From contig NC_020911.1 in assembly GCF_000155675.2 (NCBI RefSeq), positions 1,044,501 to 1,108,500 of the forward strand: DNA of 64,000 nucleotides, given 5' to 3'. The stretch comes from Octadecabacter antarcticus 307 (GTDB lineage Bacteria; Pseudomonadota; Alphaproteobacteria; Rhodobacterales; Rhodobacteraceae). Below are positions 10,759 through 23,737 of the stretch, piece after piece (position 1 is the stretch's first letter; each line of letters opens with the position of its first letter). The notes below the pieces were generated by a model. It saw nothing but the letters and a program-made list of their open reading frames with translations. It did no database searches and had not been told where the DNA came from. The translations under genes were made by a program, and so were the position numbers.

Positions 10759-11994
10759 TTAGAAGCTTCCAGCATTGCGATACCAACGCACGATCGCAGC
10801 GCGGTCGCTTTCAGACATCGCCGTGACGTTGGCAGGGGGCATTGCGTGGCTGACGCCCGACTGGATGTAGATCGCGCGTGCGTTGCGGGCGATGTCGGCG
10901 GGCGTATCAAGGAGCACGCCGCGCGGGGCCCAAAGGAGGCTGTCAGAGTAGGACGGTTCGCGCCCATGACACATTGAACAGCGACCCATGACCACGTCGT
11001 GCGCTTCGTCAAACCCGTCAGCCAATGCAAATCTCTCCTCGTAGGATGTCATGCCGCGCGCTTCGGCTTGCTCAAACGTGCCCCACATATTTGCCGTGGA
11101 CAGCCAAGCGATGATGATGAACAGCAGCACGGTGACGGCCCAAGTCCAATGCGGCCCTTTGCCAGTCGAATGCATGGTGTTGAAATAGTGCCGGATCGTG
11201 ACACCAGTGAGAAAGACTAACGATGCGATGATCCACGAGTATTGCGTCGCGAAGGCCAGTGGGTAGTGATTGGACAGCATCAGGAAGATCACTGGCAGCG
11301 TGAGGTAGTTGTTGTGCGTGCTGCGCAGCTTGGCGATCTTGCCGTATTTCGGGTCAGGCGCGCGACCTTCTTGCAGGTCCTTTACCACGATGCGCTGGTT
11401 TGGCATGATGATGAAGAACACATTGGCTGTCATAATTGTTGCCGTGAACGCACCAAGGTGTAGCATTGCTGCGCGGCCAGTGAAGACCTGATGGTAGCCG
11501 TAAGACATGATCACGAGGATCACAAACAACAGCAACATCAACGCTGTCGGATTGTTGCCCAGCTCGGACTTGCACAGGAAATCGTACAGCAGCCAGCCGA
11601 CCGTCAGCGACAGTGCCGAAATTGCGATACCTTGCCATAGTGCGAGGTCCGCCTTGGCGGCGTCAATTAGGTACAATTCGCCGCCGACCCAATAGACAAT
11701 CATCAACAGGGCAGCACCGGACAGCCATGTCCAGTAGCTTTGCCATTTATGCCATGTCAGGTGTTCGGGCAGGCGCGCAGGGGCTACGAGGTATTTGGTC
11801 GTGTGGTAAAATCCGCCGCCGTGGACTTCCCATTCTTCACCAGCGGCACCCTCGGGCAGATCGTCGGCTTTGCGCAACATCAGGTCGAGCGCGATGAAAT
11901 AGAACGACGCCCCAATCCATGCCATTGCTGTGATGACGTGCAACCAGCGGACCGCAAAAGCGAACCATTCCCAAAGAATTACTGCATCAAACAT
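10759..11994 (-). CDS. puuD: Membrane urate oxidase PuuD with cytochrome c domain
   Basis: 411 residues. The N-terminal 300 residues hold about eight transmembrane helices, starting FAVRWLHVITAMAWIGASF, with conserved histidines such as those in RLPEHLTWHKWQSY and YGYHQVF. The C-terminal 100 residues are a cytochrome c domain with CSMCH near residue 344. This is the PuuD architecture: urate is oxidised to 5-hydroxyisourate and electrons pass to the heme domain instead of making peroxide. It is divergent from the LysR gene and next to UraH and PuuE-UraD, which carry out the following steps. Confidence 0.9.
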   Translation of the reverse strand: MFDAVILWEWFAFAVRWLHVITAMAWIGASFYFIALDLMLRKADDLPEGAAGEEWEVHGGGFYHTTKYLVAPARLPEHLTWHKWQSYWTWLSGAALLMIVYWVGGELYLIDAAKADLALWQGIAISALSLTVGWLLYDFLCKSELGNNPTALMLLLFVILVIMSYGYHQVFTGRAAMLHLGAFTATIMTANVFFIIMPNQRIVVKDLQEGRAPDPKYGKIAKLRSTHNNYLTLPVIFLMLSNHYPLAFATQYSWIIASLVFLTGVTIRHYFNTMHSTGKGPHWTWAVTVLLFIIIAWLSTANMWGTFEQAEARGMTSYEERFALADGFDEAHDVVMGRCSMCHGREPSYSDSLLWAPRGVLLDTPADIARNARAIYIQSGVSHAMPPANVTAMSESDRAAIVRWYRNAGSF

Positions 11995-12099
11995 GGCGAG
12001 TCCTCGTTTTATGTCCCATCGATTTTGTTCAACCTATCCTTGGCCGCTTTATTTTGCTATTCCCCTGTAACGCGTCGCTCTATCAAGAAATGCAGAACA

Positions 12100-13032
12100 A
12101 TGTCCTATCTCGATAATATTAGAACTTTTGTGCGGGTTTACGAACTTGGCAGCATGTCCGCCGCAGGGCGCGATCTGCGCATTTCGCCTGCAGTGACGTC
12201 GTCGCGGATTTCATCGCTTGAGGAACATTTGAATGTGCGGCTGTTCCAGCGCACCACGCGCAGCCTGACAGCAACCGAACAGGGCCGCGCGTTTTACACT
12301 GGTGCGGTGGCGGTGCTTGAAGCGGTGGATACCGCCGAAGGGCAGGTGGCGGGCATAACCGATAACCCGAAGGGGTCGCTTTATGTGGCGGCACCTTTGG
12401 GGGTGGGACGGCGGCTGATCGCGCCCTTGGTGCCTAACTTTGTACGGGACTATCCGCTGATTGATATTCGCTTGCGGCTGACGGATCGAACGGTTGATCT
12501 GACGACGGAGGGTCTAGACATTTCGTTTTTCCTCGGCGAACCGGCGGATAGTAATCTGCGCATCAAACCGATCGTGCATTGTGACCGTGTGCTGGTGGCT
12601 GCACCCAAATATATTGCCCAACGCGGCAATCCGGTGGACGGTGCCGCGTTGGTGAAAGACGCACACAACTGCCTGAACCTGCGCTATCCCGGGGCCCCAG
12701 AATTTCAGTGGCGTTTACAGACGTCGGATGGGCCACAGCGGTTTCGTGTCGCGGGTCGGTATGAATGTGACGACGGCGATGTGTTGACGGAATGGGCGCT
12801 GGCAGGCGAGGGCATCGCGCTAAAACCGGTGTTCGAAGTGGCGGGACATTTGAACGCAGGCAGGTTGGTTCCCGTCGCGACAAAAAACCCGCCGATGCCA
12901 ATCCAGATGGCCTGTCTCTATACGCACCGCCGTCGCCAAGACCCGAAAACGCGCCTGTTCATGGAATACATGACCACGCGGATCGGGGCTTCGATGAACG
13001 CCGCGCAACAAAGTGTTCAGCTGCCGCGATAG
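12100..13032 (+). CDS. LysR-family regulator of the ureide genes
   Basis: 310 residues from the ATG giving MSYLDNIRTFVRVYELGSMS. Residues 1-60 form the LysR winged helix-turn-helix (AAGRDLRISPAVTSSRISSL); the rest is a type 2 periplasmic-binding-like effector domain. A much longer frame is open upstream, but it overlaps puuD in antisense and lacks the family start. It is divergent from puuD with a 105-bp gap and its 3' end overlaps uraH by 16 bp tail to tail. Control of the purine genes on both sides by a ureide or urate signal is an inference. Confidence 0.85.
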   Translation: MSYLDNIRTFVRVYELGSMSAAGRDLRISPAVTSSRISSLEEHLNVRLFQRTTRSLTATEQGRAFYTGAVAVLEAVDTAEGQVAGITDNPKGSLYVAAPLGVGRRLIAPLVPNFVRDYPLIDIRLRLTDRTVDLTTEGLDISFFLGEPADSNLRIKPIVHCDRVLVAAPKYIAQRGNPVDGAALVKDAHNCLNLRYPGAPEFQWRLQTSDGPQRFRVAGRYECDDGDVLTEWALAGEGIALKPVFEVAGHLNAGRLVPVATKNPPMPIQMACLYTHRRRQDPKTRLFMEYMTTRIGASMNAAQQSVQLPR

Positions 13033-22905: not shown

Positions 22906-22918
22906 TTTCGGGCCTAAA

Positions 22919-23737
22919 TCAAAGACCGGGGTGACGGTTTACGTCTTTATACAGCAGGTAGCGGAACTGACCCGGACCACCCGTGTAACAGGCCTGCGGG
23001 CAGAACGCGCGCAGCCACATGAAATCGCCTGCTTCAACTTCGACCCAATCGTTATTGAGGTTATAGACCGCTTTGCCTTCAAGCACATAGAGCCCGTGTT
23101 CCATGACGTGGGTTTCTAAGAACGGGATTAGACCGCCCGGTTGGAACGTCACGATTGTCACGGCCATGTCGTGGCGCATATCGTCTGAATCCACGAAACG
23201 TGAAGTGCCCCATGCACGTTCGGTGCCGGGCATGTAGTCGGGTTCAACGTCGGCGTCATTGGTGACCAGAACGGGTGGCGCTTCGATGCCGTCAACCCAT
23301 TCATAAGCCTTGCGAATCCAGTGGAAACGGCAGGCCGCGTCTGTGTCGTTTAGAAACGTCCAATGCGTATCGACAGGGATGTAGGCGTAGCTGCCTGTTG
23401 TTAACCTGTGCGTTTTGCCGTCGATGGTCAGCGTTGCGCCGCCTTCAACGACGAAGATCACCGTCTGCGCCTCAGCGTCGGTGTCGGGTTTTTGCGACCC
23501 CCCACCAGCGCTGACTTCAACGATGTATTGGCTGAACGTTTCGGCAAAGCCCGACAGTGGCCGCGCGAGGACCCATGCGCGGGTTTTATCCCAAAACGGT
23601 AGGTTGCTTGTCACGATATCGCGCATTGTCCCTTTGGGGATGACGGCGTAGGCCTCAGTGAAAATGGCGCGGTCCGTGAGGAGCTGCGTTTGCGGTGGGT
23701 GGCCACCGTGCGGGGCGTAATATGTGGGCTTTTTCAT
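22919..23737 (-). CDS. allE: (S)-ureidoglycine aminohydrolase
   Basis: 272 residues from the ATG giving MKKPTYYAPHGGHPPQTQLL, a bicupin. The C-terminal cupin holds the manganese site in ETHVMEHGLYVLEGKAVYNL and MWLRAFCPQACYTGG. It releases ammonia from ureidoglycine to give ureidoglycolate, the AllA substrate. The longer upstream frame adds 15 residues without conservation. It is placed beyond bhcR, so ureide genes flank the bhc cluster on both sides. Allantoate amidohydrolase (AllC), the missing step between, is not in the window. Confidence 0.92.
   Translation of the reverse strand: MKKPTYYAPHGGHPPQTQLLTDRAIFTEAYAVIPKGTMRDIVTSNLPFWDKTRAWVLARPLSGFAETFSQYIVEVSAGGGSQKPDTDAEAQTVIFVVEGGATLTIDGKTHRLTTGSYAYIPVDTHWTFLNDTDAACRFHWIRKAYEWVDGIEAPPVLVTNDADVEPDYMPGTERAWGTSRFVDSDDMRHDMAVTIVTFQPGGLIPFLETHVMEHGLYVLEGKAVYNLNNDWVEVEAGDFMWLRAFCPQACYTGGPGQFRYLLYKDVNRHPGL

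Follow-up and report, generated by a model that had tools for sequence, protein, structure and literature searches.

Beta-hydroxyaspartate cycle genes lie within a urate and ureide gene cluster of Octadecabacter antarcticus 307 and many of its relatives

Within a window of 64,000 nucleotides from the Roseobacter-type marine bacterium Octadecabacter antarcticus 307, to which all plain positions given below refer, a block of urate and ureide degradation genes (10759-23737) encloses the genes of the beta-hydroxyaspartate cycle (BHAC), bhcABCD, together with their regulator gene bhcR. Judging from the genes it carries, the block is likely to be a urate-to-glyoxylate set with a self-regulated, glyoxylate-induced BHAC cassette inside it, by which purine carbon would be converted to oxaloacetate alongside carbon from other glyoxylate sources. 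The same arrangement in many relatives suggests that this carbon-saving pathway is fed by purines, though it is probably not reserved for them.

The reactions considered here are taken from the known chemistry of the enzyme families; the activities of the particular proteins, the binding of BhcR and the carbon flux are inferred. Urate would be converted to allantoin by PuuD, UraH and UraD, and allantoin to allantoate by PuuE. The AllE-type protein would then lead from allantoate to ureidoglycolate, probably by acting on both allantoate and ureidoglycine, and AllA would release glyoxylate and urea from ureidoglycolate. Glyoxylate, acting through BhcR, is expected to raise bhcABCD, whose four enzymes would form oxaloacetate from two molecules of glyoxylate. 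The bhc cassette would be under its own control, and the cell's glyoxylate sources probably share it, among them a glycolate oxidase whose genes lie about 418 kb from the block. XdhA, XdhB and XdhC score above their cut-offs elsewhere in the genome, so that xanthine can probably be converted to urate.

A reading of this DNA made from the sequence alone (hereafter the sequence-only reading) had placed the bhc genes inside the ureide set and had proposed a search for the same co-location in related genomes. The nesting is indeed present in the window and was observed again in many relatives. For this comparison the window proteins were aligned by tblastn with the best 80 of at least 578 confirmed BhcA loci from a genome collection, a sample biased to close relatives of the window BhcA. 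Near bhcA we found allE in 45 loci, allA in 35, the puuE-uraD fusion in 28, and uraH and puuD in 27 each; these five were counted as core ureide genes. The NCS2 permease gene was present in 39 loci, nine of which are matches of only 30-36% identity. At the set thresholds at least one core ureide gene lay within about 10 kb of bhcA in 57/80 loci and at least three in 27/80; for the loci with full flanks the respective counts are 45/61 and 23/61. The gene allE is situated at most 1.5 kb from bhcA in 41 of the 45 loci that have it, and in 28 of the 30 loci with both genes bhc sits between allE and allA.

A second sample, chosen without regard to bhc, comprised 198 genomes of 197 genera from the GTDB family of the window organism. 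BhcA was detected above the cut-off in 83 of these genomes, and at least 29 of the 83 carry allA and/or allE within 15 kb of bhcA (18 both, five allA only, six allE only), a figure that broken contigs and the limit of 150 places each for AllA and AllE make a lower bound. Counted singly, allA is linked in at least 23/83 and allE in at least 24/83 genomes, while about 0.7 would be expected for either gene, calculated per single gene placed at random in 4 Mb. The sole same-genus pair of the sample (G000 and G145) falls among the 29 linked genomes. The same order can also be seen in the public annotation of the plasmid NZ_CP031947.1 of Ruegeria sp. AD91A, apart from one GFA-family gene. As a side observation, 141 of the 72,556 plasmid records in PLSDB hold a BhcA relative at an E value of 1e-100 or better, 27 of them with less than 60% identity, which indicates that bhc genes are often carried on large plasmids.

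Gene identities in the block were scored with NCBIfam/TIGR and Pfam profiles, in bits against the cut-offs of the models. Gene content and order were read directly, and all genes listed by the sequence-only reading are intact and follow in the order it gave; none of the 13 translated frames of the block contains an internal stop. The series begins with puuD for a membrane urate hydroxylase (10759..11994, minus strand; PF06181 (Urate_ox_N), 438.4 bits), followed by a gene for a LysR-family regulator (12100..13032, plus strand; Pfam HTH_1 and LysR_substrate) whose open reading frame (ORF) opens at 11740 with the LysR part from about 12100. Then come uraH for 5-hydroxyisourate hydrolase (13017..13370, minus strand; TIGR02962, 126.2 bits, cut-off 87.45), the puuE-uraD fusion for allantoinase and 2-oxo-4-hydroxy-4-carboxy-5-ureidoimidazoline (OHCU) decarboxylase (13516..14934, plus strand; TIGR03212 508.4 and TIGR03164 197.2 bits, both above cut-off) and allA for ureidoglycolate lyase (14931..15416, plus strand; PF04115, 202.6 bits), the sole match in the genome. 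PuuD, UraH, UraD, PuuE and AllA, the enzymes leading from urate to glyoxylate, are hence all encoded in the block. The NCS2 purine permease (15466..16887, plus strand) exceeds the TIGR00801 cut-off with 326.5 bits and scores 409.5 bits with the pbuX model, slightly below the cut-off of 414.15; its ORF opens at 15223 and, according to the translation, it probably starts at about 15466. Between this gene and bhcD lies the GFA-family gene (16922-17410, PF04828), which is missing from the gene list of the sequence-only reading and which tblastn with the window proteins detected in none of the 80 relative bhcA loci at the threshold used.

The BHAC enzyme set is complete, each of the four proteins scoring above its NCBIfam equivalog cut-off. 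All four genes are located on the minus strand: bhcD for iminosuccinate reductase (17484..18449; NF045643, 557.9 bits, cut-off 500), bhcC for 3-hydroxy-D-aspartate aldolase (18543..19736; NF045642, 739.1 bits, cut-off 690), bhcB for beta-hydroxyaspartate dehydratase (19724..20674; NF045641, 573.1 bits, cut-off 550), with a probable start at 20674 in an ORF opening at 20782, and bhcA for L-aspartate:glyoxylate aminotransferase (20709..21875; NF045640, 720.6 bits, cut-off 650). The IclR-family regulator gene bhcR (22039..22905, plus strand; NF045644, 378 bits, cut-off 350) is divergent from bhcA and shares with it a gap of 163 bp containing operator-like sites. The last gene encodes an AllE-type bicupin, (S)-ureidoglycine aminohydrolase, possibly acting also on allantoate (22919..23737, minus strand, ORF opening at 23782; NF008376, 508.4 bits, cut-off 338, and NF040771); it converges with bhcR, the ends of the two genes being 13 bases apart. 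The directions of transcription, minus for puuD, plus for the LysR gene, minus for uraH, plus for puuE-uraD, allA and NCS2, minus for bhcABCD, plus for bhcR and minus for allE, define separate units, and bhc therefore shares no operon with the ureide genes.

A putative BhcR operator was deduced from conservation in the bhcA-bhcR gaps, on which a position weight matrix was trained, and sites of at least 15 bits were accepted. The gaps contain a conserved palindrome, TGAAA-N5-TTTCA, and in 24 of the 25 gaps listed a 22-base motif has its end 53-57 bases from bhcA. Among 78 gaps (77 loci and the window) the palindrome with at most one mismatch occurs 40-90 bases before bhcA in 63 and at most 75 bases from bhcR in 50, compared with means of 0.31 and 0.49 in base-shuffled gaps, and 40 gaps have both copies, one near each gene. 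In the window the candidate site proximal to bhcA is located at 21929..21950 (minus strand; 19.8 bits with the matrix, the best site between 9 and 26 kb) and an exact palindrome proximal to bhcR, presumably a second BhcR site, at 22009..22023 (no strand assigned). According to passages of PMC11323563, BhcR of Paracoccus activates bhc, glyoxylate changes its binding to DNA, and glcDEF is under a repressor of its own. The paired palindromes fit the two-site idea which the same passages propose for BhcR of P. denitrificans.

A BhcR regulon shared with the ureide genes was looked for and not found, the operator being nearly absent from ureide promoters: no site of at least 15 bits was found upstream of allE (0/45), NCS2 (0/30), puuD (0/27) or lysR (0/33), and a single locus (L036) has one between uraH and puuE (uraH 1/27, puuE 1/28). 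A search for motifs upstream of puuE, puuD and allE yielded patterns that are weak or overlap coding sequence. With so little sign of BhcR control over the ureide genes, glyoxylate itself most plausibly provides the coupling.

Clusters without adjacent bhc hint at the origin of the nesting. In the four that were read (L102-L105) allE adjoins allA, and one (L103), from a relative without BhcA above the cut-off, has the order puuD-lysR-uraH-puuE/uraD-allA-allE; the window order equals this one with NCS2, GFA, bhcDCBA and bhcR added between allA and allE. This is most simply read as the insertion of a bhc cassette into a compact ureide cluster; the reverse history, a loss of the cassette from a nested cluster, may also have occurred. 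In a BhcA tree that combines the window with the 80 loci, both main halves contain linked loci (29/40 and 29/41 rows). The linkage label needs 15 changes there (shuffled labels: 20.2 on average), as would be expected of an old association that was broken many times. As part of the explanation favored here, and with the same good probability, the linkage would reflect selection for the use of purine carbon, or else co-inheritance, and not exclusive use.

Several findings weigh against this explanation or lessen what speaks for it. Within the family sample 54 of the 83 genomes with BhcA have no linkage within 15 kb, the linked count being a lower bound, and on the megaplasmid of Ruegeria pomeroyi DSS-3 neither the annotation nor tblastn places a ureide gene within 12 kb of bhc, so that linkage is not universal even within Ruegeria. 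The presence of BhcA and that of AllA are not associated (AllA in 78/83 genomes with and 103/115 without BhcA, p=0.31). The window's own bhcA-proximal operator copy is weak, with two core mismatches compared to the form kept by most relatives, and bhc control may therefore be altered in O. antarcticus 307. An operator-like site upstream of bhcA in 64 of the 80 loci is there partly by construction, because the matrix was trained on those gaps, and its absence before allA (0/36) says little, because allA lies inside an apparent operon. The sequence-only reading had named a complete glyoxylate carboligase route as a competing fate of glyoxylate; no Gcl above the TIGR01504 cut-off (711.2) was found in the 198 family genomes, which speaks for the explanation, but malate synthase and other sinks were not searched for. 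The best Gcl match in the O. antarcticus genome reaches 321.9 bits, and one of 14 control genomes has a Gcl above the cut-off.

The step from allantoate to ureidoglycine needs closer consideration. The sequence-only reading stated that AllC is absent from the block, and in none of the 198 family genomes, the own one included, does AllC exceed the cut-off; that it must be encoded elsewhere is doubtful, since AllE may take its place. The window AllE surpasses the cut-off of NF040771 (bifunctional allantoicase/ureidoglycine aminohydrolase) with 489.7 bits versus 350, and a basis for this NCBI name was not found in literature listings. The nearest solved chain is 1sq4, a 'Glyoxylate-induced Protein' of P. 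aeruginosa (447 bits), while YlbA (1rc6) scores 119 bits. Within the family sample AllE of the NF040771 kind occurs in 174/198 genomes, AllA in 181/198 and allantoicase in 7/198, and there is no allantoicase in the O. antarcticus genome. Among the 181 genomes with AllA, allantoicase was detected in 4/8 without AllE (two of these eight having very weak AllE matches) versus 2/173 with AllE (one AllE being below the cut-off, and one of the two allantoicases being in broken pieces), p=2.3e-5. At the level of the class, allantoicase (34/337) and AllE (19/337) do not overlap, a weak result with a chance probability of 0.12.

The competing view, that the M20 enzyme of the pyd cluster (C2:4105047-4106348) opens allantoate and AllE performs the ureidoglycine step only, would make the assumption of an AllC elsewhere correct, and we regard it as rather unlikely. 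Its gene is intact and its product scores 689 bits with the 'allantoate amidohydrolase' subfamily NF006769 (cut-off 452), but only 222 bits with AllC (cut-off 597.75), and it adjoins PreA and dihydropyrimidinase genes, which belong to a pyrimidine route. Weaker matches to the M20 family of AllC are found in 187/198 family genomes. Eleven genomes have no AllC match at an E value of 0.001, a loose first look by which a distant enzyme could be missed; AllA and AllE are both present in nine of them, all of which lack allantoicase. Five of the nine are at least 93% complete (G016, G053, G081, G131 and G185), and these, like the distribution of allantoicase given above, argue against the M20 enzyme; by tblastn, allE adjoins allA in four of them and lies beyond bhc in G081. 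Passages of PMC13313319 list one coral Ruegeria strain with K14977 (ureidoglycine aminohydrolase) and K16842 'allantoicase'. With both present in one strain, AllE would catalyze a single step there. K16842 is probably an allantoinase number. An AllE-type protein acting on both allantoate and ureidoglycine is thus the reading we prefer, and according to it a single cupin would be expected to do the work of AllC in much of a large family. Independent of this question, a second M20 hydrolase gene was noticed as a remnant at G000:C2:3017234-3017837 (L093:7235-7838); one piece is in frame with part of an IS5-family transposase, and an IS256-family transposase adjoins it.

The sequence-only reading had further regarded the cycle as dedicated to purine-derived glyoxylate. 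In its strict form, in which BHAC of this lineage exists for purine-derived glyoxylate, with glycolate playing a minor part or none, this view is improbable, although the neighborhoods speak for it to some extent. The neighbors that recur around bhc are purine and ureide genes: apart from allE, xdhA lies near bhc in 15/80 loci, whereas glcDEF, counted from 40% identity upward, stands beside it in 0/80. In the 23 loci that lack core ureide genes 118 neighboring ORFs were picked, of which 87 were aligned and scanned; among the 25 commonest of 101 families none matches more than four of these proteins and no glycolate-oxidase theme is discernible. Two of the 87 proteins are purine-type permeases. 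Against dedication stands glcDEF in the same genome (C2:633150-637421), with GlcF above the cut-off and adjoining GlcE (274.7 bits, cut-off 284) and GlcD (534 bits, cut-off 897) best named so. The genome has one BhcA above the cut-off, three further matches, below the listed range, scoring less than about 302 bits. No operator shared by bhc and ureide promoters was seen, 103 of the 198 family genomes have AllA without BhcA above the cut-off and five the reverse, and growth of P. denitrificans on glycolate needs bhcR, as stated in passages of PMC11323563. A BHAC reserved for purines was accordingly rejected as stated, because the genome has glcDEF, the operator is nearly confined to bhc, and the presence of BhcA is not associated with that of AllA.

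That bhc came to lie next to ureide genes by ancestral chance and was carried along without functional coupling is very improbable, for although linked loci on both halves of the BhcA tree, 15 label changes, the lack of a visible shared operator and the missing association of BhcA with AllA would agree with it, the nested order is repeated in many genera and the product of AllA is, by known chemistry, the substrate of BhcA.

A more far-reaching form of the explanation favored here, which we offer tentatively and do not consider the probable one, is that the selective partner which keeps BHAC in place in roseobacters is less the oxidation of glycolate than the purine-ureide route. The cassette would have been taken up by a compact urate cluster, at a point between allA and allE; as AllE would open allantoate itself, urate would become a carbon source whose glyoxylate arrives at oxaloacetate with no further loss of carbon.

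All parts of the block are already known, and the gene order is visible in public annotation. The cluster of Ruegeria sp. AD91A resembles the window in its order from the allE-type gene to puuD, and its annotation names AllE 'bifunctional allantoicase/(S)-ureidoglycine aminohydrolase'; unlike the window, which is part of the main contig, it is located on a 743 kb plasmid with no GFA-family gene listed. In the allantoin/glyoxylate regulon of E. coli ureide breakdown is likewise tied to glyoxylate assimilation with an IclR-family sensor, but the route there runs through carboligase and glycerate where the window has BHAC. AllR of E. coli binds the gcl and allS-allA promoters (passages of PMC11323563), whereas the deduced BhcR operator of the window is found at bhc only. 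According to the same source, bhcRABCD of P. denitrificans corresponds to the window in the four enzymes, the divergent IclR-family bhcR and a glcDEF at another place; it differs in that the window cassette lies between allA and allE. BHAC is described there as a glycolate route, and the passages name purine bases and allantoin just as a general source of glyoxylate. Nesting of BHAC in ureide genes is undescribed in the passages of PMC11323563, PMC11166783, PMC11698098, PMC10499878 and PMC13313319, a scope outside which the 2019 Nature paper on BHAC and most subscription literature fall. The recurrent nesting makes purines a candidate second carbon input of BHAC beside glycolate, one that can be tested. 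Marine purine cross-feeding is a current topic, and passages of PMC11698098 name glyoxylate as the carbon product for SAR11 therein; neither 'roseobacter' nor 'hydroxyaspartate' occurs in its main text.

Further observations concern the remainder of the window. Adjoining puuD, a metal-type ABC transporter operon (7969-10786) appears broken, its permease, ATPase and binding-protein matches lying in separate or shifted frames, in contrast to the intact ureide-bhc block. Between 30243 and 39184, genes of a dipeptide-type ABC transporter flank a hydantoinase/oxoprolinase A gene, and at 45129-51461 a protein of 2110 residues is encoded which combines RTX calcium-binding repeats and Ig-like domains with a C-terminal Hint domain.

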